DNA of 64,000 nt from Thiorhodospira sibirica ATCC 700588 (GTDB lineage Bacteria; Pseudomonadota; Gammaproteobacteria; Ectothiorhodospirales; Ectothiorhodospiraceae): assembly GCF_000227725.2 (NCBI RefSeq), contig NZ_MU255056.1:306088-370087 (forward strand), read 5' to 3'. Of the stretch, positions 10,997 through 60,217 are shown piece by piece. Each line of letters starts with the position of its first letter. The stretch's first letter is position 1. The position numbers were made by a program, and so were the translations under genes. Under the pieces are notes generated by a model, which was given only the letters and a program-made list of their open reading frames with translations, made no database searches and was not told the origin of the DNA.

Positions 10997-12640
10997 ATGA
11001 AAAATTTTTTATGGATGCATACGCTGAGTATCCGAAGCAAGCTCATGATCACCATGATCCTGCCATTGGCGGCCCTGCTGCTGATCACCTCCTTATCGAT
11101 CACATTTATGCGTCAACTGGAAAATACGGCAGAGCGTATCTATGAAGATCGGGTGGTGCCCTTGTTGCAGTTGGCGAAGGTGGGTGATGCCTATGCGGTA
11201 TTGATTATTGATGCAGTGAATAAGGCAGAGCAGGGCGTCATCTCTGCACCCGAGGCACTGCGCTCTGTCCGCGAGGCGCGTGTGCAGATTGAACGCGAAT
11301 GGGGTCAATTCATGCAGACCCGCCTGACACCCGAGGAGGCGGCCTTGGCGCGTGAGGCCAATGCCTTGTTTCAGCGCGCCAATGCCCAGATTGAGCAACT
11401 GGAACGGGCGCTGTCTGCCTTGCCCAACCGCGCTGCCGGACAATTATCCGCCTACAATGGCCCGCTGTATCAACTCATTGACCCGATTTCGCGCAAGCTG
11501 GATGAGTTGGTGATTTTGCAACGCGATGTGGCCGCGCTTGAACATCATGAAATGCAAAGATTGTATGCTCGCGCCATCTGGATCTTTGTCACGCTGTCAA
11601 CACTGGCTTTATTGCTGGTCGGGCTGATGGGCTGGCAAACCTATCACTCCATTTCCAACCCAATGTCGTATATGCAGACACAGCTGCGCGAAATTGCCCG
11701 CGAGCATAATCTGGCACAACGGCTGGAGATCAAAAACCAGGACGAGATTGGCGCCACCGCCGAGGCCTTTAACTCAATCCTTGCGACCTTCAAAGATGCC
11801 GTCGATGAGATGACCCGCATGGCCGGGGAGTTGACCGAGGCCTCGGGGGCGCTGTCGCAGATCAGCAGCGCCACCAATCAGGATCTGGAGCATCAGCAGA
11901 CCCAGACCGAACAAGTCGCCACCGCGATGAACCAGATGACCAGTACGGTGCAGGAGGTCTCGCGCAGTGCCAATGAGGCCGCCCAGGCCAGTCAGGAGGC
12001 AGATCGTGAGGCCCGCAGCGGCGGTCAGGTGGTACAATCCGTGGTTACGGCCATCAGCGGTTTGTCCAATGAAGTCCGGCGGGTGGCCGAGGCGGTACAG
12101 GCGCTGGATCATCAAAGCCAGGAAATCGGCACAGTGCTGGATGTGATTCGCGGCATTGCCGAACAAACGAACCTGCTGGCGCTCAATGCCGCCATTGAGG
12201 CCGCTCGCGCTGGCGAACAGGGGCGCGGCTTTGCGGTGGTGGCCGATGAGGTTCGCACTCTGGCCTCGCGCACCCAGCAATCTACCGCCAATATTCAGTC
12301 CATGATTGAGCGTTTGCAGGCCGGAACCCGTGATGCAGTGTCGGCGATGGATCATGGCCGCGAAATGGCCGAAACCACGGCCGCCGAGGCCGCCCGTGCC
12401 GGGCAGGGGCTGGAAAGCATCATGGAAGCGGTATCGCGGATTCGCGACATGACCGCGCAAATTGCCAGTGCCGCCGAGGAACAACATCTGGTGGCCGAGG
12501 AAATCAACCGCAACGTCACCGCCATCAATGACATTGCCGGCAAGACTTTAGACGGGGCAGGCCAAACGGCCACCTCCAGCGGGCAGGTGCTGAAAATTGC
12601 CAATCGGGTGCATGAACTGGTTTCCAAATTCCGCACCTAA
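10997..12640 (+). CDS. Methyl-accepting chemotaxis protein
   Basis: A 547-residue transmembrane chemoreceptor. There is a short cytoplasmic N terminus, membrane helix 1 (about 16-37), a periplasmic four-helix-type sensor region of about 155 residues rich in Q, E and A, membrane helix 2 (about 192-213), a HAMP segment ([19 protein letters not shown] onward) and a long signalling coiled coil. The CheA/CheW-binding tip, near 375-425, includes [18 protein letters not shown] and [12 protein letters not shown]. The ATG at 10997 is chosen over an upstream frame opening because GGAGA precedes it and the protein then starts just before membrane helix 1. No other che genes are nearby. The ligand is unknown. 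Confidence 0.93.
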
Positions 12641-12671
12641 TACACCGACTTCACTTGCCGACATCCTCTCG

Positions 12672-12726
12672 GGAATGCGCAGCCTGCGCTGCGCATTCCG
12701 CCTATGTGCGGCGCAGTGACTGCGCC
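12672..12726 (+). terminator. Tandem hairpins after the chemoreceptor gene
   Basis: A 12-bp perfect stem (GGAATGCGCAGC at 12672-12683 with GCTGCGCATTCC at 12688-12699) is followed by a 7-bp stem (GGCGCAG at 12710-12716 with CTGCGCC at 12720-12726). Neither has a T-run, so termination may be weak or Rho-assisted. They separate the chemoreceptor from the P-type ATPase. Confidence 0.5.
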
Positions 12727-12768
12727 CTTCAATGATTTATCGACATCTCACACCCAGGAGTTGAACGC

Positions 12769-15504
12769 ATGACGACGGAGACCCCCGATACACGCCCTGA
12801 TACTGGGGCACGCTGGCATCACCTGGATGCACAGAAGGTATTGGCACAACTGGACACTCAGGACGAGCAAGGCCTCAGTGAGGCCGAGGCCCAGCAGCGA
12901 CTGTCGCAGTATGGCCCCAATGCCATCACCGGACAAAAGCCGGTGTCCTGGGTTAAGCGCCTCTTGCTGCAATTTCACAACCCGCTGATCTACATCCTGC
13001 TGCTAGCCACGGCAGTGACCCTGGCGCTGGGTGAATACATTGATGCCACGGTGATTTTTGCAGTGGTCTTGATCAATGCCATCATCGGCTTTGTGCAGGA
13101 ATCCAAGGCCGAGGATGCCATCGCCTCATTGCGTGGCATGTTGTCTTCAACCGCAACAGTGATGCGCGAGGGTAAGCGTCTCACCCTCCCGGCCACCGAG
13201 CTGGTGCCGGGCGATGTGGTGATGGTGGCCTCGGGCGACAAAGTGCCCGCTGATATGCGCATTCTCTATTCGCGCGATCTGCAGATTGATGAATCGGCCC
13301 TGACCGGTGAATCGGTGCCGGTGGAAAAGCAATGCCCCGCGCTGCCCGAGGATACCGTGCTGGCGGATCGGCATAATATGGCCTTCGCCGGGACGCTGGT
13401 TACCTACGGCTCCGGGCGTGGCGTGATCACGGAAACCGGCGATCACACCGAAACCGGCAAGATTGCCGGCATGATCAGCCAGGCGGTCAATCTGGAAACA
13501 CCGCTGACGCGCAAGATCAACGCCTTTAGCCGCGTACTGTTGTGGGTGATTTTGGTGCTGGCGGGCATCACCTTTATCGTCGGTCTGTTATACGGCCAGG
13601 CGTGGGTAGATACCTTTATCGCCGCCGTCGCCCTGGCGGTCGCCGCGATTCCGGAGGGCTTGCCGGCAGTCGTGACCATCACCCTGGCCATCGGAGTGCG
13701 CCGTATGGCCTTGCGTCATGCCATCATCCGCAAATTACCAGCGGTGGAAACCCTAGGTTCAACCACCGTCATCTGCTCGGATAAAACCGGCACCCTGACG
13801 GAAAATCAGATGACCGTGCAGCGCATCATGGCGGCGGATCATGAATTTGAACTCACCGGCAGTGGCTATGATCCACAGGGCGAAATCCGCCTTGATGGAC
13901 AACGGGCCGAAGGCGTGATGGCCACCCATCAAGCCCTGCGTCACTGCATCCTCGCGGGTTTGCTGAGTAACGACAGCGAACTGGTGGAAAAAGAAGGCCG
14001 CTGGACCGTGCAGGGTGATCCCACCGAAGGCGCCTTGCTCACCAGTGCGCTTAAAGCGGGCTTTGACCGTCACGATATGCAGCAACGCCTGCATCGGGTA
14101 GATGCCATCCCCTTTGAATCAGATCGCCAATATATGGCCACCCTGCATCGCCACGAGGAAGGCCATCGCATCTACATGAAAGGCTCCGCTGAACGGGTGG
14201 TGGCGCATTGCGACCGGGCGATGGATGCCGACGGTGCGCTACAGCCCATTGATCCGGAAAAAATCCGGCAGCAGGTAGACTATCTGGCCAGCCAAGGTCT
14301 GCGTGTGTTGGCCTTTGCCATGCGCGAAACCGACAATACCACGCTGGACATTCCCCATCCGGATCACGCCACAGAGCCGCTGATCTTTCTGGGTTTACAG
14401 GCCATGATTGATCCGCCGCGCCAAGAGGTCATTCACTCGGTCAAGATGTGCCATCAGGCCGGTATCGGGGTCAAGATGATTACCGGCGACCATGCGCTGA
14501 CCGCCCGCGCCATCGCCGAGCGCATCGGCATCATCAAGCCCACCGCCAACAACCCCGCCAAGGTGCTCACCGGGCAGGAACTGGAACGCATTGAACCCAA
14601 GGACTTGGCGGCGACCGCCACCGAGGTCTCGGTCTTTGCCCGCGTCGCGCCGGAACAAAAACTGCGCCTGGTCGAAGCCTTGCAAAGCCGGGGGCAGGTC
14701 GTCGCCATGACCGGCGATGGGGTCAACGATGCCCCGGCGCTCAAGCGCGCAGACATCGGCATCGCGATGGGCATCAATGGCACCGAGGTCTCGCGGGATG
14801 CCTCCGATATGGTGCTGGCTGACGATAATTTCAGCTCCATCGAAGCCGCCGTCGAGGAAGGCCGCAACGTCTTTGATAACCTGACCAAGTTCATCACCTG
14901 GATTTTGCCCACCAACCTGGGCCAGGGACTGGTGATCATGGTGGCGATTTTGCTGGGACTAACCCTGCCGGTCTTACCCGTACAAGCCCTGTGGCTGAAC
15001 ATGACCACGGCCGTCTTCCTGGGATTGATGCTCGCCTTTGAACCCCGCGAAAAAGGCATCATGACCCGCCCACCGCGCAATCCCGATGCCCCGATTCTCA
15101 ATGCCGAGGTCATCGTGCGCATCTTCTCGGTCAGTGCGCTGCTATTGATCGGGGCCTTTGGCTTGTTCCAATGGTCGCTGACCCACGGCGCCAGCCTTGA
15201 AGAAGCCCGCACCCTCGCCGTCACCCTGTTTGTGGTCGTGCAAAGCTTCTTCTTGCTCAACTGCCGTTCGCTCACGCGCAGCATCTTTGCCACCCACCCC
15301 TTATCCAATCCCTGGATCTGGCGCGGCGTGGCCGGAATGCTCATCGCCCAGCTTTTATTTGTGTACAATCCGCTCATGAACACCCTGTTCCAGAGCGCGC
15401 CCTTGTCACTGGCCCAATGGGGTCTGATCATCGCCTACGGCGTCGTGGTTTTACTGCTGGTTGAACTGGAAAAAAGCCTCTGGCGCCGCAAAAAAGCGGC
15501 TTAG
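12769..15504 (+). CDS. P-type cation-transporting ATPase (P2-like)
   Basis: A 911-residue E1-E2 ATPase of the inner membrane. Domains in order: cation-ATPase N domain, helices 1-2, actuator domain with LTGES, helices 3-4 with the PEGLPA motif of P2 pumps, phosphorylation site CSDKTGTLT with Asp338, nucleotide-binding domain with KGSAERV, hinge TGDGVNDAPALKRADIG, and six C-terminal helices. In helix 6 the SERCA-type N..TD element is replaced by LWLNMTTAVFLGLMLAFEP, without the calcium-binding aspartate, so the ion cannot be assumed to be calcium. No metal-responsive regulator is adjacent. Confidence 0.92.
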   Translation: MTTETPDTRPDTGARWHHLDAQKVLAQLDTQDEQGLSEAEAQQRLSQYGPNAITGQKPVSWVKRLLLQFHNPLIYILLLATAVTLALGEYIDATVIFAVVLINAIIGFVQESKAEDAIASLRGMLSSTATVMREGKRLTLPATELVPGDVVMVASGDKVPADMRILYSRDLQIDESALTGESVPVEKQCPALPEDTVLADRHNMAFAGTLVTYGSGRGVITETGDHTETGKIAGMISQAVNLETPLTRKINAFSRVLLWVILVLAGITFIVGLLYGQAWVDTFIAAVALAVAAIPEGLPAVVTITLAIGVRRMALRHAIIRKLPAVETLGSTTVICSDKTGTLTENQMTVQRIMAADHEFELTGSGYDPQGEIRLDGQRAEGVMATHQALRHCILAGLLSNDSELVEKEGRWTVQGDPTEGALLTSALKAGFDRHDMQQRLHRVDAIPFESDRQYMATLHRHEEGHRIYMKGSAERVVAHCDRAMDADGALQPIDPEKIRQQVDYLASQGLRVLAFAMRETDNTTLDIPHPDHATEPLIFLGLQAMIDPPRQEVIHSVKMCHQAGIGVKMITGDHALTARAIAERIGIIKPTANNPAKVLTGQELERIEPKDLAATATEVSVFARVAPEQKLRLVEALQSRGQVVAMTGDGVNDAPALKRADIGIAMGINGTEVSRDASDMVLADDNFSSIEAAVEEGRNVFDNLTKFITWILPTNLGQGLVIMVAILLGLTLPVLPVQALWLNMTTAVFLGLMLAFEPREKGIMTRPPRNPDAPILNAEVIVRIFSVSALLLIGAFGLFQWSLTHGASLEEARTLAVTLFVVVQSFFLLNCRSLTRSIFATHPLSNPWIWRGVAGMLIAQLLFVYNPLMNTLFQSAPLSLAQWGLIIAYGVVVLLLVELEKSLWRRKKAA

Positions 15505-29481: not shown

Positions 29482-29889
29482 TTAACTTCTATAAAAAAGA
29501 CGTATTGCAAGGTACCAGCCGAGCCAGACGGCGAGCAGCCAGAGTATCAATGAGGCGATGATATTGAGGCCGGCAAGCCATACCATTCCCTGTTGGATCA
29601 GGTGCAGGGTTTCCAGGCTAAAGATGGAAAAGCTGGTAAAGCCGCCGCAAAAGCCGGTGATGACAAATTGGCGTTGGGCGTGGGAGGTTTTCAGGGGGCC
29701 GTCGGGGGCGCTCAGGGTTGCATATAGCCCGATCAGCAGGGAACCTAAGGTATTGACCAGCAGGCTGGCCCAGGGGAATGGATGTTGACCCGGCAGGGCG
29801 AGGATGAGCAGGCTTACTGCGTAGCGACTCATCGCCCCCAGTGCGCTGCCCAGACCCACTGCCAGAGATACGCGAAATTGAGTTGACAT
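29482..29889 (-). CDS. crcB: Fluoride ion channel CrcB/Fluc, copy 1
   Basis: The 135-residue product has four membrane helices. Family signatures are GLGSALGAMSRY near the N terminus, PWASLLVNTLGSLLIGL, and FCGGFTSFSIFSLETLHL with the conserved phenylalanines. Fluc channels export fluoride passively as antiparallel dimers. Start at 29889 because the next copy's stop lies five bases upstream; the longer open frame would run through that gene. Last of the mtnA-crcB-crcB run. Confidence 0.93.
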   Translation of the reverse strand: MSTQFRVSLAVGLGSALGAMSRYAVSLLILALPGQHPFPWASLLVNTLGSLLIGLYATLSAPDGPLKTSHAQRQFVITGFCGGFTSFSIFSLETLHLIQQGMVWLAGLNIIASLILWLLAVWLGWYLAIRLFYRS

Positions 29890-29894
29890 CGCGG

Positions 29895-30311
29895 TTAGCC
29901 GATGAACAGTAACTGCGTCAGCCAATACCCCAACCACACCGCGCCCAGCGTCAGGCCAACGGAGGCCAGGACGTTGATGCCCGCCAGCCATCCTTTTCCT
30001 TGACGTATCAGGACCAGTGTTTGCAGGCTGAATGAGGATACGGTGGTGTAGCTGCCGACCAGACCGATCATCAGCCCCAGCACCCGCATATCGCTTTGAT
30101 CCGGTGTGCTGATGCCGATGCTGGTATCGGCTACGAGCAGGCTGCTGAGCATCCCGATCAGCAGGGCACCACTGACATTGACGCTCAGGGTGCCCCACGG
30201 AAAGTTTTGGCCCAGGCGGCGCGCCATCCAGCCAGTAAGCCAGAAACGCGCCAGTCCGCCTATAAAACCGCCCAGACCGATGAATAGCCACAAGCCCAGG
30301 GTGTGCAACAT
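29895..30311 (-). CDS. crcB: Fluoride ion channel CrcB/Fluc, copy 2
   Basis: The 138-residue product, also with four helices, keeps GLGGFIGGLARFWL and FPWGTLSVNVSGALLIG. In the third helix GSYTTVSSFSLQTLVL replaces the usual GGFTTFSTFS, so a channel phenylalanine is changed. Two different adjacent Fluc genes in some bacteria form a heterodimeric channel, which is likely here. It is between mtnA and the other crcB, with 22 bases to mtnA. Confidence 0.93.
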   Translation of the reverse strand: MLHTLGLWLFIGLGGFIGGLARFWLTGWMARRLGQNFPWGTLSVNVSGALLIGMLSSLLVADTSIGISTPDQSDMRVLGLMIGLVGSYTTVSSFSLQTLVLIRQGKGWLAGINVLASVGLTLGAVWLGYWLTQLLFIG

Positions 30312-31608: not shown

Positions 31609-32373
31609 ATGCCCAGAGGGATACGTTCTTTTTTTGTGGTATGCATGATGTTGCCTGCACTGGCTGTCGCCGAGGTACAGATCCGTGAATTACACCCCGG
31701 TGAGGGGCCGCCCGCCAAGCGCCATGATACCGTGACGGTGCATTATACGGGCTGGCTGGAAGATGGTACAAAGTTTGATTCCAGCCGGGATCGTAACAGC
31801 CCTTTCAGTCTGGTACTGGGGCAAGGGCAAGTGATTCCCGGCTGGGAGCGTGGGCTTTTGGGAATGCAAGCCGGGGGTCAACGTGAATTGATCATTCCGC
31901 CTGAATTGGGTTATGGCTCTCGGGGCGCTGGCGGAGTGATTCCGCCCAATGCAACCCTGCGTTTTGAGGTGGAGCTGCTATCCATTACCCCGCCGCCGTT
32001 CAGCAATCTGGACCGTGAGGCATTGTCAGCACGTTTGCAGGCGGGTGATATCAAAGTGATTGATATTCGCCGCGCCGATGAATGGCAGGCCACCGGCGTC
32101 ATTCCCGGCAGTCACTTGCTCACCGCCTTTGATGAGCGCGGTCATCTGGTGCCCAGTTTTCCGCAGGATATTCAGGCGCTGGTAAAACCCGATGAGCCTT
32201 TTGTCATTGTCTGCCGGGTTGGCAATCGTACCGGCGTATTATCCCGCGCTCTGGCCGAACAGGCGGGATATAGCAAGGTGCATAACCTGGAAGAGGGCAT
32301 TACCGACTGGATCAGCCAAGGGCAAGCCGTGCGCAAGAATTGCCCCTCCTTTGCGCATGGGGCGCAGTGTTAA
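31609..32373 (+). CDS. Periplasmic FKBP-type prolyl isomerase fused to rhodanese
   Basis: The 254-residue product has a signal peptide (about 1-21, ending ALAVA), an FKBP domain (about 25-125) with [30 protein letters not shown] and [14 protein letters not shown], and a rhodanese domain (about 135-245) with Cys202 in [11 protein letters not shown]. FKBPs catalyse proline isomerisation; the rhodanese part may carry sulfane sulfur or bind without catalysis. AGGAGGT lies eight bases before the ATG. The fusion and its location outside the cytoplasm are unusual. Confidence 0.88.
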
Positions 32374-32471: not shown

Positions 32472-33131
32472 TTGATTACGGTGGTAGGCAATCTCAAAGG
32501 AGGTACGGGAAAAAGCACCATTACCTTTAACCTGGCCATTTGGCTGGCGCATCAGGGTGTGCATGTGATCGCGCTGGATCTTGATCCACAGGCCACCTTG
32601 ACAGATGTCGCCGAGATTCGTGCCGAAGAAGCTTTGCAACCCCTGCTGCATGTGCAACAAAATCGCAGTTTGTTACACACCCTGGCCGGCAACAGTGAAG
32701 TGCTCGTGGATGTCGGAACGGCGGATATTGATGCGATGTGCCTGGCTTTGGGCTGTGCCGATCAGGTCTTGATCCCGGTCGCCCCGAGTCAGGCAGACAT
32801 TTGGTCAACCCAGCGCTTTGTGCGTATCATTCGGGAGATTGACGAATCCATTGGCCGACAACCCCGACTGATGGCCTTTATCAACCGGGCAGACACCAAT
32901 CCGGCCATTTCGGAAACGGCTGAGGCTGAAGCTGCCTTGGATTTGCTGCCGGGGATTGAGCGACTGGACACGCGCCTGTCACAGCGTACCGATTTTCGCC
33001 GCTCCCTGAGCGAGGGTATGGCCGTATTTGAAATGGAGCCTGGTTGCAAGGCGGCGGTTGAATTTGCACAGCTGGCGCACCGGGTATTTCCGGCAACGCC
33101 CGGCCTGCCCCCGGCAATGCGTCAGGGCTGA
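32472..33131 (+). CDS. ParA/MinD-family ATPase
   Basis: A 219-residue deviant Walker-A ATPase. The P-loop is KGGTGKST (residues 9-16) with the signature lysine, followed by ALDLDPQATLTDV and LVDVGTADIDAM. These proteins oscillate or form gradients on membranes or DNA to position cargo. The start is TTG at 32472, with AGGGG about ten bases upstream. No ParB follows; instead two membrane-protein genes are next on the same strand, so it is not a normal chromosome-partition pair. Confidence 0.88.
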   Translation: MITVVGNLKGGTGKSTITFNLAIWLAHQGVHVIALDLDPQATLTDVAEIRAEEALQPLLHVQQNRSLLHTLAGNSEVLVDVGTADIDAMCLALGCADQVLIPVAPSQADIWSTQRFVRIIREIDESIGRQPRLMAFINRADTNPAISETAEAEAALDLLPGIERLDTRLSQRTDFRRSLSEGMAVFEMEPGCKAAVEFAQLAHRVFPATPGLPPAMRQG

Positions 33132-33194
33132 GCGCCCCTTATCCTTTGCCTGAGCGCATCCAGGCGTCTTGCGCGCATGTACAGAGACTAGCAG

Positions 33195-33830
33195 ATGAAA
33201 TCAGATGATGGCAAAAAGCCGCACCTCAGTCGCGAAGAACGGCTGGGCAAGGTGGATGAACTGTACAAAAAATGGCAGTTTCTGGAAGGCCGGGAACGCA
33301 CCTTGGCGCATGAAATCAAGCAGGAAGAGCAGCGCTCCAAGCGCCTGGCCCTGCTGGTGTATCCCTCCTTGGTGGCCTTTTTCATCCTCTCGGCCTATGG
33401 CTTTTTTCTGATCGCCAGTCTGACCCGCGATGTCAACCGCCTGGCCGTAGAAGTCACCGCCATGACGGTTGCCATTGAACGGGATATTCCCTTGATTGCC
33501 AATAATATGGTGCAAATGAGTGAGCTGATGATGCACATGAACCGCTCGATGCACGCAATGAATCAAAGCATGGAAGCGATGAAAAACGATACCGGCAGCA
33601 TGGCGCAATCAACGCATTCCATGCAAAGCGATACCCGTCAAATGTCCAGAGTGACCGCCGCTATCCATCAAGACCTGTGGAGCCTGAATCAAAATGTCTC
33701 CAAACCCTTCAACATGATGAATACCATGATGCCCTGGGGCGGCGGTGTGAATCAGGGGCCCTTCCCCGGTTCGCCGGGACCGATGCCCCCGTTCACGCAG
33801 GGCTTTCCCTGGGGCGGCCCCATGCCGTAA
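33195..33830 (+). CDS. Single-pass membrane protein with Met-rich coiled coil (unknown)
   Basis: Not recognised. The 211-residue product has a charged cytoplasmic N terminus (1-50), one membrane helix (about 52-74, LALLVYPSLVAFFILSAYGF), then a helical segment (about 95-165) with methionine at heptad-like spacing, for example MNRSMHAMNQSMEAM. It ends in a proline/glycine-rich tail. It lies 63 bases behind the ParA gene and six before the next gene, so all three are likely one operon. A role as ParA partner or membrane anchor is an inference. Confidence 0.7.
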   Translation: MKSDDGKKPHLSREERLGKVDELYKKWQFLEGRERTLAHEIKQEEQRSKRLALLVYPSLVAFFILSAYGFFLIASLTRDVNRLAVEVTAMTVAIERDIPLIANNMVQMSELMMHMNRSMHAMNQSMEAMKNDTGSMAQSTHSMQSDTRQMSRVTAAIHQDLWSLNQNVSKPFNMMNTMMPWGGGVNQGPFPGSPGPMPPFTQGFPWGGPMP

Positions 33831-33836
33831 CCAGGC

Positions 33837-35009
33837 ATGGCCGTAACCAACATGCGCACATTGCTGATGCGTGTGATACTCAGCCTGCTCATTGCTGCGG
33901 CCTTACTGCTGGCTGGAACAGGCGCGTATTATTTTGCCGACCAACGCTATCTGCAACGCTTGAGCTTACAGTGGCCGATAGCCTCTGATGCCACCCGCGA
34001 GATCGTGCTCGGTCCGCTGGATGCCCAGGGTCAGTGGGTCCATGCCTTGCCGCTGCCATACCCGCTGCCTGCCCATCGCTATGCCTCTTTTCATGTGCAG
34101 CGCACCGATACGCATGTGCCGGTGCAGCTGTTTTTGCTGATTGATAGCGAACATCACGCCTCCCCTCACGCCTATCCGCTGCGGCAGCATGACTTAAACG
34201 AGTATCGGCAAGCACTGCATCCCCTGCTGGAAACAACGGAGCGGATCACGGGTCTGGCTTTAGCTATCCAGGGGCCGCCTGGGGCGCAGATCTCCGTGCA
34301 TGGGCTGCGTTTGGATGCCCAGCCGATGACATTATGGGCGCTGTATCGGGCCATCCTGGATGACTGGCGGCGTTTTGAGGGAATACAAAACTACACGATT
34401 AACCGCATTCACGGCGGTTATTACCCGCAAGCCGTCCTTTTGCCTCCGGTCCTTGCCGGGGCGCTCTGGCTGCTGTTAGGCGTGCTGATTTATCCATTAT
34501 TGCGCGGCAAGCAAAAGCACCAACGCCTAATAACCGCTTGGCTTGTCTTCGGTGTGATCATCTGGGTGCTTCTGGATCTGCGCTGGCAATGGGATTTATT
34601 CGGCCAACATACACACAGCGCACCGCGTTCTGCCGGAGTATCCTGGGAGCACAAGGCGCACTCCCCGGCAGATGTGCCGCTGCGCGAGCTGGCGCAAACA
34701 CTCAAAGCGGAAGGCATCCCCGAGACGCTAAAGCGCGTGTTTATTGTCGGCAGCCATTCTGAGGATTATCTGGCCCTGCGCTTACGCTGGCATTTATTGC
34801 CCCATCCTGTGGCATTGGTCTATCCGGAGCAGCCGCTACAGCAAGACGATGGGGTGATTTTGCTGCCAACGCAGCAGCATCTCCGCTATGAGGCCGGTGC
34901 CCAACCGGCTTACGGTCATTTATACCATCGTCATAGCAATCGCCGTATTCCGGTTCGTCTGATGATGACTCACCCTGCGGGGAGTGTCTTTAAAGTCCTT
35001 GATTCTTGA
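33837..35009 (+). CDS. Membrane protein of unknown function, 390 residues
   Basis: Not recognised. Membrane helices are predicted at about 11-30, 201-223 and 228-250. Between the first and second is an extracytoplasmic region of about 170 residues with no known motif. The C-terminal part (about 285-390) has alternating strand/helix character (VFIVGSHSEDYLALRLRWHL). It starts six bases after the Met-rich protein's stop, so it belongs to the ParA operon. The stop codon is part of the word TTGACATCCT, discussed in the findings. Confidence 0.65.
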   Translation: MAVTNMRTLLMRVILSLLIAAALLLAGTGAYYFADQRYLQRLSLQWPIASDATREIVLGPLDAQGQWVHALPLPYPLPAHRYASFHVQRTDTHVPVQLFLLIDSEHHASPHAYPLRQHDLNEYRQALHPLLETTERITGLALAIQGPPGAQISVHGLRLDAQPMTLWALYRAILDDWRRFEGIQNYTINRIHGGYYPQAVLLPPVLAGALWLLLGVLIYPLLRGKQKHQRLITAWLVFGVIIWVLLDLRWQWDLFGQHTHSAPRSAGVSWEHKAHSPADVPLRELAQTLKAEGIPETLKRVFIVGSHSEDYLALRLRWHLLPHPVALVYPEQPLQQDDGVILLPTQQHLRYEAGAQPAYGHLYHRHSNRRIPVRLMMTHPAGSVFKVLDS

Positions 35010-35026
35010 CATCCTACCCGCCCTAA

Positions 35027-35915
35027 GAAGCTGTTTGGAAACTACCGCCTCAAACCAAGCGGTTAGCCATCAGTCGACTCATTGCGAGATAAATCCAGGC
35101 TTCGCTGCTCGACATCAAGCGCTCGTAGTCCTTGCTCAGACGGCGTGAGTGGTTCAGCCAGCCAAAGGTCCGCTCAACAACCCAGCGTCGCGGCAACAAA
35201 ACAAACCCTCGGCGCTCCTTGGGACGCAAGACCCCCGTCAAGACGAAACGAAAGCGCTGGGCAACCCAGTCAACCAGGCGTCCACTGTAGCCGCCGTCAA
35301 CCCAGATTTTGCGCAGCTTTTTGCAATGACCGGGGAGATGGCGCAGGAGTTGGCGCGCCCCATCACGGTCTTGCACGCTGGCGGCGGTGACAACGACGGC
35401 CAGCACCAGCCCCAGGGTATCGACCAGAAGATGGCGTTTGCGGCCCTTGATCTTCTTGCCGGCGTCATAGCCGCGCTCACCAGGGATCGCCGTGGTCTTG
35501 ACGCTTTGGCTGTCCAGACACCCGGCGCTTGGATGCTTGTGACGCCCGTGGCGTTGCCGTAGCCGAGCGCGTAGCCTGTCATGAAGACGCTGCCAGGTTC
35601 CATCGCGCCGCCAGCGATTGAAGTCATAGTACACTGCCGACCAGGCAGGAAAGTCGCGCGGCAGCTGACGCCACTGGCAGCCCGTCTGCAGGACATAGAA
35701 GATCGCATTGATGACTTGGCGCATGCTGAGCTTACGAGGGCGCCCGACCGGGGCGCTCGGCAACAGCGGCTTGATCGCCTTCCAGGCGCCGTCGCTGAGG
35801 TGACTCGGGTAGCGTTTTTTTGCGAATCTTCTTGCTGCATTTCTGGGGCATGTGGGCCACTTCCTAGAAAAAATCGTAGGTTAAGCCATTACGCGATTAA
35901 TTTCCAAACAGCCTC
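35027..35915 (-). mobile_element. IS5-family insertion sequence
   Basis: About 890 bp. The ends are imperfect inverted repeats: GAAGCTGTTTGGAAACTA at 35027-35044 and, reversed, GAGGCTGTTTGGAAATTA at 35915-35898. The transposase gene fills the element on the minus strand. Flanks read TAA on the left and TGA on the right, so no exact target duplication is seen. Length and structure fit the short single-transposase IS5 groups. Confidence 0.85.
35050..35851 (-). CDS. IS5-family transposase, split by a frame change
   Basis: The main frame (to 35763) has [46 protein letters not shown] and the catalytic DDE-type blocks [19 protein letters not shown] and [20 protein letters not shown] complete protein would begin at the ATG at 35851 ([12 protein letters not shown]), followed by a one-base frame change in a run of seven A (minus strand, 35815-35821). 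Six A would restore one continuous frame through [19 protein letters not shown]. So either the copy is mutated, transcripts slip on the A-run, or the base is an assembly error. Confidence 0.85.
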
Positions 35916-36056
35916 TGAGGCTTTTGAACCGTGAATCCTTTGGAAAATGATGACTGAGTGGTGTTTTCACACTGCGCTTTTATCCATTGATCACGGATGC
36001 TGGTCAAGCCTGGGTTTTAAAACGCAGACATGGCGGATGGTTTTGCAGACATCGTT

Positions 36057-48432: not shown

Positions 48433-49926
48433 ATGTCATTCTCCTGCGTAATCGGCGTTGATCTGGGCACCTCCGGGTGCCGTGCCATCGCCATCGACCT
48501 TCAGGCCCGCATCATCGCCAGCGCTGTGCAAGCACTGCCTGCGCCGTTAAGCCCCGAGACGGATCATTATGAACAAGATCCGCAGCTTTGGTGGCAGGCG
48601 CTGATTGAGGTATTGCGTACTCTGTCTGCACAACTAACAGACTATCGCGTCACCCGCCTGGCCATTGACGCTACCTCAGCCAGTGTTTTATTGACCGATG
48701 CCCAGGCTCAGCCCCTGGGGCCGGCCTTGATGTATCGTGATCAACGCGCCAAATCCGAGGCCGCTTATATTGCGCGATACGCACCTTCCGCCAGTCCAGC
48801 CCGCGGAGCCAGCGCCAGCCTGGCAAAGCTTTTATCAGTTTGCGCGGGAAACCCCGGCCGCAAGGCCAAGGAGGGATAGCGCAGCACGCAAAGCGTGCGC
48901 CTGTTCCCGAGGCCTCCTCTTTGGTAGCTCGCTCTCTTTAATACATAGATGCTATCTTCATTTTAACCGCCGGGCTGGCGGGGTTAGTCTGTGGAGAAAC
49001 TGTAAGTCCGGTGTCTCTTTGAGGCATTTGGCAGGTCTCGGCGCAGGCAGGAAGGACGGGGAGGATGTCAACCAGGCATCCCTTGCTGGGTGATGCACCA
49101 GGCCGATTGGCTCAGCGCCCGTCTTAGCGGACAGATCGGCTATAGCGATTGGAATAATGCCCTAAAACTGGGCTTTGATGTGCAGCAACAACAGTGGCCA
49201 TCCTGGGTCAAGGCACTGATTCCTCCCGAAGTACACTTGCCACAGGTACTGGCACCTGGCACCCCGCTGGGCACACTAAGCGCAACCAGCGCGGCATTAA
49301 CGGGTCTGTCGGCGGACACGCAAGTGGTCGCTGGCACCACCGACAGCACTGCCGCCTTTATCGCCACCGGAGCCTGTGCGCTGGGGGATGCCGTCACCTC
49401 GCTGGGCAGCACCCTGGTTTTGAAAATCCTAAGCCCGGTTGCGGTCAATGACGCCAGTATTGGGGTTTACAGTCATCGCTTGGGGGAGTATTGGCTGGTC
49501 GGCGGAGCCTCCAACAGCGGTGGCTCGGTCTTGCGCCAGTTTTTCAGCGATGCACAGATCCAGACATTAAGCGCCCACATCGACCCCACCCGCCCCAGCG
49601 GCCTGAACTACTACCCATTGCCAGCCATCGGCGAACGGTTTCCGCTGGCCAACCCCGCAATGGTCCCGCGTTTAAGCCCCCGTCCACCCGATCCCGCCCT
49701 CTTCCTGCAAGGACTGCTGGAAGGCATTGCCCAGATTGAGGCCCAAGGCTACGCCCATTTGGCCGCCTGTGGCGCCCCCTACCCGCAACGCATCCTCACC
49801 GTGGGCGGCGGCAGTCAAAATCCGGCCTGGACACACCTTCGCCAGCGCATCCTCGGCGTCCCCATTGAGCCCTTGCCCGACCGCCCCGCCGCCTTGGGCG
49901 CCGCGATGCTTTGCTTATCAAAATGA
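48433..49926 (+). pseudogene. FGGY-family carbohydrate kinase, frameshifted and interrupted
   Basis: The N-terminal part (48433-48850) encodes VIGVDLGTSGCRAIAIDLQ and LAIDATSASVLLTD, both typical of xylulokinase-like FGGY kinases. One extra T in a run of four T near 48830 seems to shift the frame: with three T, the text continues KLYQFARETPAAR. The gene is then cut by about 220 bases of non-coding DNA. It resumes at HQADWLSARLSGQIGYSDWN (from 49093) and reaches its normal end with the GGGSQNP motif. The substrate was probably a pentulose or related sugar. Confidence 0.85.
48868..49092. mobile_element. About 220-bp insertion inside the sugar-kinase gene
   Basis: The insert interrupts the kinase between its ETPAAR and HQADW parts. 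It has no reading frame of its own that looks real. Its ends carry a loose inverted repeat (CCAAGGAGGGAT and, reversed, CCAGCAAGGGAT). Internally there are hairpins, GCACGC/GCGTGC near 48892-48906 and CCGCC/GGCGG near 48967-48981. Near its right end the reverse strand reads TTGACATCCTCCCCGT (49071-49056), a word seen at the 3' edges of many IS200/IS605 elements. It may be a non-autonomous relative. Confidence 0.5.
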
Positions 49927-54714: not shown

Positions 54715-54900
54715 CGCATTTAACGGCACTCCCAGCTTGAGTATGGAATAATCCGCCGGGCTGTGTCAGGATACAGGCGCTATTTTTGGCCTTGGCTTGG
54801 GCCGGTCTGCTGTCAGTGTGCTGGGCATACGCAGGCCGGTTTGGGGCTGATGGCGATTGTTTAACGCAATTTTTGCAGATTTTTGGGGAGATTTGAGCGT

Positions 54901-55353
54901 ATGTATTGGGTCTTGGCGTTAATGACGGTGGCTTTGGTGGGGATGATCGCGGCGGGGATTTATTATGATATGAATCCGCCCAAGCCGGATAACACCCGTG
55001 TGGTGCGGCGCATGAAAGGGATTTTGGGGGCAAATTTGCTGACCTTTGTCAGTGCGCAAGCCTTGCTGGTGTTCGTGGCCTTTCAGCAGGTCATGGCCAG
55101 TGACGCAGTATCACAGGGGGTCAATGAGATCTCCATCGGCATGGGTCTGGCCATGATTGGCGCCGGCATTCCAACGGCGTTTGCCACGGTGGGCGCGGGG
55201 ATTGCCGTGGGGCCGGTGGGCAGCGCCGCCATTGCCGCGATCAGCGAAAAACCCGAGATCTTTGGGCGCAGTCTGGTGTATCTGGGGCTGGCAGAAGGGA
55301 TTGCGATTTATGGCCTGGTGGTCACCATCCTGATGCTGGGCGCGATTGGTTAG
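54901..55353 (+). CDS. V/A-type ATPase proteolipid subunit K
   Basis: Subunit K forms the ion-carrying ring in the membrane. The 150-residue product has four membrane helices at about 3-20, 43-62, 80-110 and 122-148. The GIGAGIAVG-like hairpin (GAGIAVGPVGSAAIAAI) is followed by LAEGIAIYGLVV, placing the ion-binding glutamate at residue 132. Only one such glutamate is seen, as expected for the single-hairpin ancestry plus an extra N-terminal hairpin. Whether protons or sodium ions are moved cannot be told. GGGGAG lies about ten bases before the ATG at 54901. It is first of the operon K-F-E-A-B-D. Confidence 0.88.
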   Translation: MYWVLALMTVALVGMIAAGIYYDMNPPKPDNTRVVRRMKGILGANLLTFVSAQALLVFVAFQQVMASDAVSQGVNEISIGMGLAMIGAGIPTAFATVGAGIAVGPVGSAAIAAISEKPEIFGRSLVYLGLAEGIAIYGLVVTILMLGAIG

Positions 55354-55368
55354 GCCTGAGAATCGCTC

Positions 55369-55725
55369 ATGTATGCAGCATCCCCTGTACAAGACACTGC
55401 CCCCACGCGCTTTATCGCCATTGGCTCGGCGCCGCTGGTGGAAGGGTTTGGGCTGATTGGCTTTGAAACCTATCCGGATGTGCAGTGTGAGGCACTGGCC
55501 ACCTTACTGGAGACGGTGGTGCGCAGTCGTGTGCCCACGCTGTTATTGCTGGAAAACCGCCTGGCGCGTTGTCCCTGTCCGATTCTGGAGCATATCCGCA
55601 ATCAGCAGGCGCAGATCGTGGTGGTGGAGATTCCCGAACTGCATAATCCAACGGATTTTCACCCGGAAGTGGAGCATCTGGTGCAAAGCGTCTTGGGTCC
55701 TTCTGCTCTGGAGCAAAAAACGTGA
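55369..55725 (+). CDS. V/A-type ATPase subunit F
   Basis: Subunit F is part of the central rotor stalk and helps regulate catalysis. The 118-residue product has the expected alternating strand/helix pattern: FIAIGSAPLVEGFGLIGFET, TLLLLENRLA and QIVVVEIPEL. It starts 15 bases after subunit K. Its stop overlaps the next start as GTGA, implying coupled translation. Confidence 0.82.
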   Translation: MYAASPVQDTAPTRFIAIGSAPLVEGFGLIGFETYPDVQCEALATLLETVVRSRVPTLLLLENRLARCPCPILEHIRNQQAQIVVVEIPELHNPTDFHPEVEHLVQSVLGPSALEQKT

Positions 55726-56372
55726 TCAGCGAAAATCATATCGCGGAACTGGAACATGCCTTGCTGGCGCGGGCGCGCAACCTTGCCCAGGAATATCTGG
55801 GGCGGGCGGATACTGGGCGCGAGCAGATCATCCGTGATACCAACTATCATCTGCGTCTGCGCGAAGAGCGCGAGATGCTGGCGGCCAAAAGTTTAGGCGA
55901 TCGTACCTATCGCCAGTTGACCCAGGCCGGTGAGTTGCAGCTACAGGCCGATATGGACCGGCTACGCTTTGCCCTGATTCAGGGGGTGATGCTCTCGGCA
56001 CTTGAGGAAATCAAGCAATTTACCCGTGATGAACAGCGCTATCTACCGGTACTTGGCCAGTTTTTGGCACGCAGCGCCCAGGCCATTGAGGATAAACCGC
56101 TGATTGTGCGGGTGAATGCAGCGGATCATAAACGCCTGAACAAGCGTTGGGAGAGCTGGAGCGCCGAATATGTGCCACACCGTCAGGTAACGCTGGATGA
56201 AGAGACGCTGGATTGCATCGGCGGGCTGGTGGTGCAGGATGAGGCCGGGCGTGAGCGCATTGATCAAACCTTTGAAGGTCGTCTGGAGCGTCTGGAAATG
56301 GCAGTACAGCAAGTGGCAGTGCAGCGATTATTTGCGACGCTGCCGGAGGCCGGAGGGCTTTTGAATGGCTAA
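55722..56372 (+). CDS. V/A-type ATPase subunit E
   Basis: Subunit E forms the peripheral stalk. The 216-residue product is a long charged helix in its first half (about 1-100), then a globular part with LIVRVNAADHKRLNKRW, GGLVVQDEAGRERIDQTFEG and RLERLEMAVQQ, the usual E-subunit signature. The start is GTG at 55722, overlapping the F stop. It overlaps subunit A by eight bases. Confidence 0.85.
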   Translation: MISENHIAELEHALLARARNLAQEYLGRADTGREQIIRDTNYHLRLREEREMLAAKSLGDRTYRQLTQAGELQLQADMDRLRFALIQGVMLSALEEIKQFTRDEQRYLPVLGQFLARSAQAIEDKPLIVRVNAADHKRLNKRWESWSAEYVPHRQVTLDEETLDCIGGLVVQDEAGRERIDQTFEGRLERLEMAVQQVAVQRLFATLPEAGGLLNG

Positions 56373-58155
56373 GGTGGTAGATATCAATGGCCCGATTGTG
56401 ATTGTGCATCTGCCGGAGGTCTTGATCGGTGAGCAGGTGCGCCTCGGCGAGCTGGGCCTGTTGGGCGAAGTGATCGGACGCGAGCAGGAATGCGCAGTGG
56501 TGCAGGTCTATGAATCCACCGAAGCGCTGCGCCCCGGTGAATCGGTGGAGGCGCTGGGACATCCCTTGTCGGTGGAATTGGGCCCCGGCTTACTGGGGCA
56601 GATTCTGGACGGAATTCAGCGCCCGCTGACCGCCATTGCCGCCCAAAGTGGCGATTTTATCGGGCGTGGCGTACATCCCCCGGCGCTGGATCGGGAGAAG
56701 CGCTGGCCATTTGTCCCCAATCCGCTGCTCAAGACCGGCCAACGCATTCAGGGCGGGCAAGCGCTGGGCACGGTGCGCGAAACCCAAAGTATTGAGCATC
56801 GCATTCTGGTTCCGCCGGACATTGACGGCGAACTGCTGGAACTGGCACCGCAAGGCGACTATACCATTGAGGAAATCGCGGCACGGGTACAGGATAGCAA
56901 AGGCCAGATCCACTCCTTGCGCTTTTACCAGCGCTGGCCGGTGCGCAAACCGCGCCCCTATCTGCGCCGCAGTGCTGTGGGCAAGCCTCTGCTCACCGGG
57001 CAGCGCGTACTGGATACTTTCTTCCCGCTGATCAAAGGCGGGAAAGCCGCCGTACCGGGCCCCTTCGGAGCGGGCAAAACCATGGTGCAGCAGCAGATTG
57101 CCCGCTGGTCTAATGCCGATATCGTGATCTATGTCGGCTGCGGCGAACGCGGCAACGAACTGGTGGACATTCTCGAAACCTTCCCCGAACTGATTGATCC
57201 GCATACGGGTCGCTCGCTGATGGAGCGCACCCTGCTGGTGGCCAATACCTCGAATATGCCGGTGGTGGCGCGGGAGGCCTCGATTTATGTGGGCGTAACG
57301 ATGGCCGAATACTACCGCGACCAGGGCTATGATGTGGTGATGGTGGCGGATTCCACCTCCCGCTGGGCAGAGGCTTTGCGCGAGGTCAGCGGGCGGCTGG
57401 GACAAATGCCAGTGGAGGAAGGCTATCCGGCCTATCTGGCCTCACGGCTGGCGGCGTTTTATGAGCGGGCCGGGTGCGTGGATCTGCTCGGCGGCGAGGG
57501 CAGTGGTTCTGTCACGCTGATTGGCGCGGTTTCCCCGCCCGGCGGTGATTTTTCCGAACCCGTGACCAGCCACACCAAAGAGATCATTCAAACCTTCTGG
57601 GCCTTGTCCAAAGAACTGGCCGATGCCCGTCACTATCCCTCCGTGGACTGGGCTGACAGCTTTTCGGGCTATATTCAGGATGCCGCCGCGTGGTGGTCGG
57701 AATCCGTGGATACTCGCTGGGAACGCCTGCGCGCCGAAGCCTTGGGGATTTTGTCGCGGGCTGATGAACTGGCGCGCATTGTCAATCTGGTTGGCCCCGA
57801 GGCGCTGTCTTCACAGCAACGCTGGGAACTGGCCGGGGCGCAGGTGATTCGCGAGGGCTTTTTGCAGCAAAGCGCCCTGGATGAGATCGACAGCTACTGC
57901 TCGCCGCAAAAGCAATTTCGCCTGCTGGAGCTATTGCTCAATCTTTATCAGCGCGGCCAGCGTCTGTTGGCCCAAGGGGCTTCCGTGCAGCGCCTGCTGG
58001 AATTGCCCCTGCTGGCCACGGCCAAGCGCCTCAAGAGTCAATACAGCAGCGAGCAGCTTGATGAGATGAATGCCTTTGCGCAAGAGATTGACGACATCTT
58101 CAGCGCACTGGATCAGGAATATCTCGCTGTCCCGGTGAAACAGCCCGCCGCATAG
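56365..58155 (+). CDS. V/A-type ATPase catalytic subunit A
   Basis: Subunit A binds and hydrolyses (or makes) ATP. The 596-residue length and the non-homologous insert after the N-terminal barrel (about 95-190) are typical of V/A-type A subunits and not of F-type beta. The P-loop GPFGAGKT is at 232-239, with [17 protein letters not shown] and [20 protein letters not shown] following. All catalytic motifs are intact. GGAGG lies eight bases before its ATG, inside the end of subunit E. Confidence 0.94.
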
Positions 58156-58166
58156 AGGTTTTTTTC

Positions 58167-59585
58167 ATGAGAGAAAAAGAATACCGTTACGCCAGCGCCG
58201 CCCGTGGTGGCCTGCTGTTTATGAAAGGCTTGAGCGGGGTGCGCAATGGGGATCGCGTGCAGGTGCGCGATCATCAGGGACAGGTGCGCAATGGGCAGGT
58301 GATCCGCACCACCACCGAGATGGTGCTGATCCAGGTCTTTGAGGGTACTGACGGACTGGACTTGGAGCGCACTTGGGTGCGTTTTCTCGAAGAACCCTTC
58401 GAGGTCACGCTCTCACCGGCCATTCTTGGGCGCATCTTTAATGGCGTGGGCAAGCCGCGTGATGGCCGCCCGGCCTTGATCAGCCAGACCAAACGCAATG
58501 TCAACGGCTCGGCGGTCAATCCGGCGGCGCGGGCCTATCCCAAGGAATTCATCCAGACCGGACTTTCCGGCATTGACGGCCTCAATTCCCTGGTACGCGG
58601 GCAAAAGCTGCCGGTGTTTTCCGGCTCAGGTCTGCCGCATAACCGCCTGGTCGCGCAACTGGTGCGCCAGGCCAAGCTCCCCGGCGAGGAAAGCAATTTT
58701 GCCGTGGTTTTCGCTGCGATGGGCATCTCCCATGCCGATGAGCGCTTTTTCCGCCAAAGCTTTGAATCCAGCGGCGTCTTGCGCAACGTGGTGATGTTCA
58801 CCAATCTGGCCGATGATCCGCCGATTGAACGCCTGATCCTGCCGCGCACCGCGCTGACCGTGGCTGAATATCTGGCCTTTGATCTGGATTTGCATGTGCT
58901 GGTGGTGATCACCGACATGACCCATTATGCCGAGGCGCTGCGCGAAGTCGCTACCGCCAAGGGCGATGTCCCCTCACGCAAAGGCTATCCGGGGTATCTG
59001 TATTCCGATCTGGCCGAAATCTACGAACGCGCCGGACGGATTCGCGACCGCCACGGCTCCATCACCATGGTGCCGGTGTTATCCATGCCCTCAGACGACA
59101 TCACCCATCCCATCCCCGATTTGACCGGCTACATCACCGAGGGGCAAATCGTGCTCTCGCGTGAATTACACGGCCAGGGCATCTACCCACCGATCCATGT
59201 GCCGCCCTCTTTATCGCGCCTGATGAAAGACGGCATCGGCGCACAATACACCCGCGACGACCACGCCCGCGTCGCCAGCCAGCTCTACGCCTCCTACGCC
59301 CGGGCGCTGGAAGTGCGCAATCTGGCCTCCATTGTCGGCGCCGAAGAACTGTCCCAGCGCGACCGCCAATACATGGACTTCGCCAAACTGTTTGAACGCC
59401 GCTTCATCGGCCAGGGCGAAGAGCAAGACCGCTCCATCATCGAAACCCTGGAAATTGCCTGGGAGGTCTTATCCTTGTTGCCCCCCAGCGAACTCACCCG
59501 CGTCAGCGAGGCCGATCTGGCCCGTTCGCATAACTGGAGCGAAGACCGCAGCCCGGCAAGCGATAGCGAGGCCCTGGTCGCATGA
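58167..59585 (+). CDS. V/A-type ATPase subunit B
   Basis: Subunit B is the non-catalytic partner of subunit A in the hexamer. The 472-residue product has YASAARGGLLFMKGLSGVR, SGIDGLNSLVRGQKLPVFSG without a functional P-loop, and the ADLAEIYERAGRI-type stretch RAGRIRDRHGSITMVPVLSM. AGAGG lies six bases before the ATG. Its stop overlaps the subunit D start as ATGA. Confidence 0.93.
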   Translation: MREKEYRYASAARGGLLFMKGLSGVRNGDRVQVRDHQGQVRNGQVIRTTTEMVLIQVFEGTDGLDLERTWVRFLEEPFEVTLSPAILGRIFNGVGKPRDGRPALISQTKRNVNGSAVNPAARAYPKEFIQTGLSGIDGLNSLVRGQKLPVFSGSGLPHNRLVAQLVRQAKLPGEESNFAVVFAAMGISHADERFFRQSFESSGVLRNVVMFTNLADDPPIERLILPRTALTVAEYLAFDLDLHVLVVITDMTHYAEALREVATAKGDVPSRKGYPGYLYSDLAEIYERAGRIRDRHGSITMVPVLSMPSDDITHPIPDLTGYITEGQIVLSRELHGQGIYPPIHVPPSLSRLMKDGIGAQYTRDDHARVASQLYASYARALEVRNLASIVGAEELSQRDRQYMDFAKLFERRFIGQGEEQDRSIIETLEIAWEVLSLLPPSELTRVSEADLARSHNWSEDRSPASDSEALVA

Positions 59586-60217
59586 GCCGCCGCCTGAAAA
59601 TCTCCCCGACCAAAAGCGCCCTGCTGCAAACCAAACGCCAACTGGTATTTTTACAGCAGGGACATGATCTGCTGGAACGCAAGCGTGAACTGCTCACCCG
59701 CCTGGTCTATGAACATCTGGCCGAATACCGCCGCCTGCGCAACGAAACCCGCGAAAAGCTGGCCGAAGCCTATCACTGGCTGGCCATCTGTCAAATGCGC
59801 ATGGGCGGTCGTCGCCTGCGCCAGGCTGCCACGGGCTTGCAACCCGCCTTAAAGGTACGCATCCTGCCGCGCAGCAATCTGGGCGTGGAATACCCCTCGG
59901 TGCAGGTCGAAACCTGCCCACTCAAACCCGTGGGCCTCATGTGGACCGACTCAAGCTTTGACGAAACCCGCCTCAAACTGCAAGAAGCCGCCGTCATGCT
60001 CGCCCGCCTGGCCGAGTCGGAAACCTCACTGTGGCGCCTGTTAAAAGAACAGCGCAAAACTCAAAAGCGGGTCAACGCCCTCAAATACAACATCATCCCG
60101 CGCTATCAGGCCACCGTGCGCTTCATTCAGGGCAGCCTGGAAGAAGATGAACGCAACACCCTGTTTCAGATCAAACAACTCCACGCCCAACGCGAAGACG
60201 CCAACCACACCGTTTGA
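59582..60217 (+). CDS. V/A-type ATPase subunit D
   Basis: Subunit D is the central shaft of the rotor, similar in role to F-type gamma. The 211-residue product has the characteristic start ISPTKSALLQTKRQLVFLQQ and long N- and C-terminal helices (NALKYNIIPRYQATVRFIQ). It closes the operon; no subunit C or I gene follows. A repeat copy lies beyond it. Confidence 0.9.
   Translation: MSRRLKISPTKSALLQTKRQLVFLQQGHDLLERKRELLTRLVYEHLAEYRRLRNETREKLAEAYHWLAICQMRMGGRRLRQAATGLQPALKVRILPRSNLGVEYPSVQVETCPLKPVGLMWTDSSFDETRLKLQEAAVMLARLAESETSLWRLLKEQRKTQKRVNALKYNIIPRYQATVRFIQGSLEEDERNTLFQIKQLHAQREDANHTV

Follow-up and report, generated by a model that had tools for sequence, protein, structure and literature searches.

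What does a ParA-type ATPase place or organise when it is coded beside a membrane-spanning coil instead of a ParB? The question is raised by two adjoining genes, parA and gene 2, in a stretch of 64,000 nucleotides from Thiorhodospira sibirica ATCC 700588 (contig NZ_MU255056.1, positions 306,088 to 370,087 of the forward strand), which we call the window. A first-pass annotation, made from the letters of the window, had grouped these two genes with a third (gene 3) as the operon of a possibly undescribed positioning or envelope system. Our comparison of genomes leads to a smaller unit and points to another cargo. We are confident that parA and gene 2 form a real pair linked to sulfur globules. 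Judged from sequence, there is about an even chance that their products position or organise either the globules or the machinery for globule export or coat. The two genes and their parts are the following.

32472-33131, plus strand: parA, 219 amino acids, TTG start; ParA-type ATPase of a distinct clade, very probably linked to sulfur globules
32496-32519, plus strand: deviant Walker A motif KGGTGKST, parA residues 9-16, from the sequence
33195-33830, plus strand: gene 2, 211 amino acids; one-pass membrane rod with a Met-rich heptad coil, conserved neighbour of parA
33195-33368, plus strand: N-terminal tail of gene 2, predicted to be cytoplasmic by the positive-inside rule
33369-33425, plus strand: transmembrane segment of gene 2, a single hydrophobic maximum
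33426-33695, plus strand: Met-rich heptad coil of gene 2 with a Met period of 3.5, predicted to be periplasmic
33696-33827, plus strand: Pro/Gly-rich tail of gene 2, from the sequence, with low confidence in the AlphaFold model

Neighbours of parA and gene 2 across genomes

Genome contigs were scanned with the ParA alignment, and from the 332 relatives detected the best 80 by ParA similarity were taken as the named loci of this study. Downstream of parA on the same strand, gene 2 occurs in 66 of these loci, a dynamin-like GTPase in 38, a DUF302 membrane protein in 28 and a tetratricopeptide repeat (TPR) protein in 11, with dsrE2 in none. Upstream of parA are genes for an RND exporter (61 loci), a membrane fusion protein (MFP; 49 loci) and proteins resembling sulfur globule proteins (SGP-like; 29 loci), and the RND count is 59/64 where at least 4 kb of upstream DNA is available. 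At least one gene from the set of gene 2, RND, SGP-like, dynamin and DUF302 is present in 74/80 loci. This wide conservation, which takes in many sulfur oxidisers, supports the earlier proposal of a so far undescribed system built on ParA, in which the partner gene codes for a membrane coiled coil. We refer to the recurring set of genes as the module.

One genus of the same family (g4) has the order RND - sgp1 - sgp2 - sgp3 - parA - DUF302 - gene 2 - dynamin-like GTPase - dsrE2, with some genes missing from some loci and with the contigs of L054 and L061 ending before parA. At locus L042, sgp3 scores over the cut-off of the Pfam SGP family (PF17228; 33.7 versus 26.7), and sgp1 and sgp2 match no Pfam family. 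The dsrE2 gene of this genus is over the cut-off of NCBIfam SulfCarrDsrE2 (NF047629; 287.8 versus 210), the module GTPase matches Pfam Dynamin_N (53.8 versus 27), and the membrane protein matches DUF302. Locus L053 of a second genus (g5) runs MFP - RND - small secreted protein - SGP-like - parA - TPR protein - gene 2 - DUF302, and its SGP-like protein scores 23.4, which is below the Pfam SGP cut-off. Among 47 genomes of the order to which T. sibirica belongs, relatives of gene 2 are present in 28 and close relatives of parA (E 1e-47 or better) in 26; under a limit of E 2e-13 or better for gene 2, both are present in 24 genomes, parA only in two and gene 2 only in one. Two globule-protein loci without parA and gene 2 contain, as judged by eye, a one-pass open reading frame (ORF) resembling the TPR protein between globule-like and dynamin-like genes (L127:5935-6648, L128:5899-6612).

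The module is scattered in T. sibirica itself, where only parA and gene 2 have stayed together. Two SGP genes over the Pfam cut-off lie elsewhere in the chromosome (none of 14 control genomes gave a match), and a dynamin homologue (53%) and a DUF302 membrane protein (~37% identical to that of the module) are both away from the window. The genome also codes for two tandem, distant paralogues of gene 2 (L062:8387-11570 and 11733-14939), both Met-rich and one-pass, which lie near an RND gene and follow a sensor protein whose C-terminus is cyclase-like. These are perhaps a second system without ParA. DsrA was not found in this genome, and hence the organism presumably oxidises sulfur by another route.

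Co-occurrence carries the link to sulfur globules further. The ParA group is sharply set apart in 369 gammaproteobacterial genomes, scoring 208 bits or more in 65 genomes from 32 families, with the next group at 113 or less. Pfam SGP matches 56 of the 369 genomes at E<=0.001 (55 over the cut-off), and DsrA is found in 118. ParA and SGP occur together in 50 genomes, ParA alone in 15, SGP alone in six and neither in 298, which gives an odds ratio (OR) of 166 and a Fisher p of 2e-41 in a test that ignores tree structure, related genomes not being independent. The same four counts are 54, 11, 64 and 240 for ParA and DsrA (OR 18), and 43, 11, 6 and 58 for ParA and SGP within the 118 DsrA genomes (OR 38). 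By family, ParA and SGP are both present in 25, ParA only in seven, SGP only in two and neither in 133, where the total of 167 families is assumed from the highest label seen.

Within the order the corresponding counts are 25, 1, 2 and 19. In G017, the single ParA-only genome, tblastn detected an 83% sgp3; of the two SGP-only genomes, one has a completeness of 67%, and the contig of the other (G038) stops short of the expected place of parA. Four genomes (G016, G019, G025 and G040) keep the dynamin-like gene and are missing parA, gene 2 and any Pfam SGP match, and the three of them that were inspected also keep an sgp1-like gene and DsrE2. This joint absence may be the result of one loss event. 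Judged by their titles, 41 of the 80 loci come from groups that a part of PMC10386293 lists as forming intracellular globules: bivalve or tubeworm symbionts (23), Thiotrichales (11, Beggiatoa-type, Thiomargarita, Thioploca and Thiothrix included) and Magnetococcales (7). Most of the remaining loci are titled only 'Gammaproteobacteria'.

The ATPase and the membrane rod

The Walker A motif of the window ParA conforms to the ParA/MinD pattern KGGxGK[ST][ST] with its signature lysine, and residues K9, G10, G11, G13, K14, S15 and T16 are invariant in 41/41 alignment rows. The start residue is common to homologues. Pfam CbiA matches at 56.8 bits over a cut-off of 25.4, and the best NCBIfam model is ParA_partition (NF041546) at 131.6 bits, below its cut-off of 180 (the relative at L042 reaches 139.1); matches to NCBIfam BcsQ are weak and far under cut-off. 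An AlphaFold model with a predicted local distance difference test score (pLDDT) of 90.3 has a ParA-type fold, for which the closest solved structure is ParF (Z 24.3, root-mean-square deviation 2.6, 198 aligned residues, 22% identity). MipZ and Soj are next among the fold matches listed, and the match to McdA is weaker (Z 20.0). ParF is the closest solved relative by sequence as well. The last confident helix of the model spans residues 193-205 and is followed by a low-confidence tail at the C-terminal end, where MinD has an amphipathic helix for membrane targeting. At the position aligned with the arginine of Soj that we take to contact DNA, a basic residue is present in 41/41 rows.

All 51 members of the ParA clade fall together with a support of 0.94. 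Many of the same genomes also code for a more distant ParA (~29-38% identity) that forms a separate group, four loci of which (L133-L136) are without module genes. Reading of the window revealed no ParB gene adjoining parA, and the ParB of the genome adjoins its own Soj-type ParA elsewhere in the chromosome. The pairing with a distant ParB that the first-pass annotation had named as one of two findings that would refute its proposal is not seen.

Gene 2 had been described as a single-pass protein with regularly spaced methionines in its coil, and its relatives bear this out. A single hydrophobic maximum, corresponding to one transmembrane segment, is present in 87/87 homologues. The flank on the N-terminal side is the more positive one in 76/87, and therefore the coil should be periplasmic. 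Residues 78-170 hold 13 methionines whose spacing fits 3.5 residues (p=0.0002 versus 5000 random placements), and each of the 67 homologues that have at least six methionines passes this test at p<0.05. With 9.5% Met, gene 2 has the highest content among the 44 ORFs of 150 amino acids or more in the window. Its AlphaFold model is one continuous helix from residue 13 to 167 (mean pLDDT 76.8, predicted template modelling score 0.30), of which ~90 residues lie past the membrane segment. A plasmid origin of the pair was considered and rejected, since gene 2 had no match in 72,556 plasmid records, a collection from which records close to the source genome may be left out.

Gene 3 and the surroundings of the pair

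Three further features adjoin the pair.

33837-35009, plus strand: gene 3, 390 amino acids; membrane protein that we judge to be a bystander, moved here from an exopolysaccharide locus
35022-35920, minus strand: IS5-type insertion element, a bystander with terminal inverted repeats and transposase PF01609/PF13340
32397-32424, plus strand: promoter-like site 5' of parA, TTTATA-16-TATAAT, a 10/12 consensus match only

The three ORFs lie as first annotated, with gaps of 63 bases between parA and gene 2 and of 6 bases between gene 2 and gene 3. Only part of the operon drawn from this spacing holds, however: the conserved unit is parA and gene 2, not three genes, and gene 3 lies downstream of parA in 0/80 loci. 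It is for gene 3 alone that joint conservation fails, and we rejected it as a member of the system on this count and because its relatives reside in exopolysaccharide loci. What had been said of the protein itself, that it is an unknown membrane protein with three helices, agrees with our results. Three hydrophobic stretches are apparent by reading of the sequence, no Pfam match was obtained at E<=1, and NCBIfam gave only a match below cut-off (E 0.2).

Matches to gene 3 are present in six of the 47 genomes of the order, the source genome included. In G014 and G046 the genes after the relative code for a polytopic membrane protein that matches no Pfam family and then for a WecG-type glycosyltransferase, which is an exopolysaccharide setting (the WecG assignment comes from a model run on the G014 gene, with which the G046 gene clusters). 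The G014 locus also has a sugar transferase gene. The usual polytopic partner of gene 3 lies 1.9 Mb away in T. sibirica, at C4:2279223, with no copy of gene 3 there and with a transposase-like ORF, identified by reading, on its 5' side. The IS5-type element of ~0.9 kb starts 13 bases past gene 3, and a 499-base stretch of it is 98.8% identical at L220:586-1084, ~6 kb from an SGP gene of the same genome. We infer that gene 3 was displaced to its present site by insertion sequence activity.

The promoter-like site ends 47 bases before parA and is weak, because three such sites occur in the stretch compared with 2.0 +/- 1.3 in shuffles. Directly 5' of parA, on the same strand, is a gene for an FKBP-type isomerase that carries a fused rhodanese domain (31609-32373). 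Elsewhere the window holds two adjoining CrcB-like membrane ORFs on the minus strand (29482-30311) and a V-type-like ATPase gene set (54883-60217), both named by reading only. A gene for an FGGY-family kinase is present as two ORFs, one with FGGY_N (48433-48879) and one with the end of FGGY_N plus FGGY_C (49090-49926), and is perhaps broken.

Possible cargoes of the pair

How might such a pair act on sulfur globules? One specific answer, which we put forward tentatively and would not yet call probable, is a machine that spans the envelope, in which nucleoid-bound ParA places periplasmic globules through a membrane-spanning rod with a Met core. ATP-bound dimers of ParA would reside on the nucleoid, and gene 2 would sit in the inner membrane with its tail in the cytoplasm and a rod of ~90 residues in the periplasm, where it would couple ParA to the globule coat or to a membrane pocket round the globule. 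ATP hydrolysis at the contacts with ParA would move or space the globules, or the export sites at which they are built, with the outcome that globules are neither heaped at one place nor given to a single daughter. The pocket would owe its shape to the dynamin-like GTPase, and export or sensing would be the task of the RND and DUF302 proteins. The fold similar to ParF, MipZ and Soj, the basic position aligned with Soj and the topology of gene 2 fit a nucleoid-bound ParA with a rod linking it to the periplasm.

Several observations weigh against a role in placing globules. Gene 2 is not downstream of parA in 14/80 loci, and gene 2, RND, SGP, dynamin and DUF302 are all absent from six loci (L159, L202, L203, L204, L212 and L215), whose titles place them in Thiotrichales or Beggiatoa-type bacteria. 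SGP-like genes adjoin parA in a minority of loci (29/80), whereas RND is found there more regularly, and the exporter may therefore be the cargo. The 15 ParA genomes without a Pfam SGP match and the six SGP genomes without ParA do not fit, and the shared ancestry that the Fisher tests ignore counts here too. 'Ca. Magnetaquicoccus' UR-1 (L213, Magnetococcales) carries the module, yet globules are not visible in the available micrographs of this bacterium (PMC6783814). Partners of ParA/MinD ATPases, ParB, McdB and others among them, act through a positively charged, disordered N-terminus, according to a portion of PMC10241942, and most gene 2 proteins lack such an end: the net charge of the first 30 residues is below zero in 63/86 homologues and positive in seven (+2 in the window copy). 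Only the stretch of ~12 residues that precedes the membrane core carries positive charge, in 82/86 homologues. Given the acidic N-terminus, contact with ParA may be made by the juxtamembrane part or by another protein of the module.

If the exporter is indeed the cargo, ParA and gene 2 would position or gather an RND-MFP complex by which sulfur or globule proteins are delivered to the periplasm, and the pair would be tied to globules only indirectly. The 61/80 loci with RND 5' of parA (59/64 with sufficient upstream DNA), the RND gene near the two distant gene 2 paralogues of the source genome and the exporter gene, hydrophobic/amphiphilic in type, that adjoins sgpD of Allochromatium vinosum according to PMC10386293 are all in keeping with this. 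Nevertheless, the window pair has been kept without an adjoining RND gene, and RND is a broad family, and we consider this explanation rather unlikely. Envelope operons also hold ParA-like proteins other than partition ATPases. The window ParA could accordingly be a non-spatial regulator or assembly ATPase, a role that has been proposed for BcsQ-type proteins of cellulose operons, and switch coat secretion or globule mobilisation on and off via gene 2 and DUF302. The weak BcsQ matches and a gene 2 N-terminus without the usual partner charge would agree with such a role, but the closest folds are those of ParF and Soj, which segregate DNA, and of MipZ, which forms gradients, and the basic residue in 41/41 rows at what is presumably the DNA-contacting position of Soj also makes it improbable.

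The cargoes first proposed for this ATPase were chemoreceptor arrays, pili or carboxysomes, which other ParA/MinD ATPases do place (PMC10241942, in part). By reading, no che, pil or carboxysome gene adjoins the window parA (models for che, pil or cso were not applied to the 80 loci), and the recurrent neighbours of parA are instead RND, dynamin, DUF302 and SGP genes. The neighbours seen thus give these cargoes no support and, together with the co-occurrence, indicate sulfur globules; we regard the earlier candidates as very improbable. Equally slight is the chance that parA is a leftover plasmid partition gene without a present function. Its best NCBIfam model is ParA_partition, under cut-off, and its closest structure is the plasmid ParF, but this ParA occurs in 65/369 genomes and 32 families, its motifs are invariant and its neighbour is conserved, which would not be expected of a relic.

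Placing and organising sulfur globules or their machinery, the role that we prefer, has one of its nearest parallels in the McdA-McdB positioning of carboxysomes, where a ParA-type ATPase is likewise coded beside the genes of the suspected organelle. Here, however, the suspected cargo lies beyond the inner membrane, and a membrane-spanning rod is what the partner gene codes for; no McdB or carboxysome gene was noticed in the window (cso or McdB models were not applied to the loci). ParF/ParA of plasmid TP228 (type Ib partition) is the closest solved relative, and its partner is the DNA-binding ParG/ParB, whereas the window parA has no adjoining partner of this type. The module GTPase resembles bacterial dynamin-like proteins in its Dynamin_N match, although none of these is linked to sulfur globules in the literature that we found. 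SgpA-SgpD of A. vinosum are similar in that SGP genes recur beside parA and sgpD adjoins an RND-type exporter gene, but they are coat or periplasmic proteins, with no ATPase described alongside them in the relevant part of PMC10386293. In the same species, Alvin_1738/1739 ('cobyrinic acid ac-diamide synthase') go down together with sgpD on pyrite, according to an extract of PMC11267869. We dropped them as orthologues of the ParA module because they are flanked by genes of the dinitrogenase-cofactor type, unlike the module.

The ATPase itself is a ParA, whereas the module and its suspected cargo appear to be new; we class the whole with ParA-type cargo systems and not with McdA, ParABS or MinD. 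Open-licence PubMed Central literature yielded no link between ParA and sulfur globules and no relevant one between dynamin and globules, PMC7787665 makes no mention of 'ParA', and no description of how cells build, place and inherit sulfur globules was found in the literature examined. Purple sulfur bacteria, large sulfur bacteria and the symbionts of tubeworms and clams use these globules as energy stores. The genes that accompany those of the coat, for a conserved ATPase, a membrane rod, a dynamin-like GTPase and an exporter, are concrete points from which to study them. If positioning is indeed what the pair does, the range of ParA cargoes would be widened to a mineral store that lies outside the cytoplasm, beyond the inner membrane.

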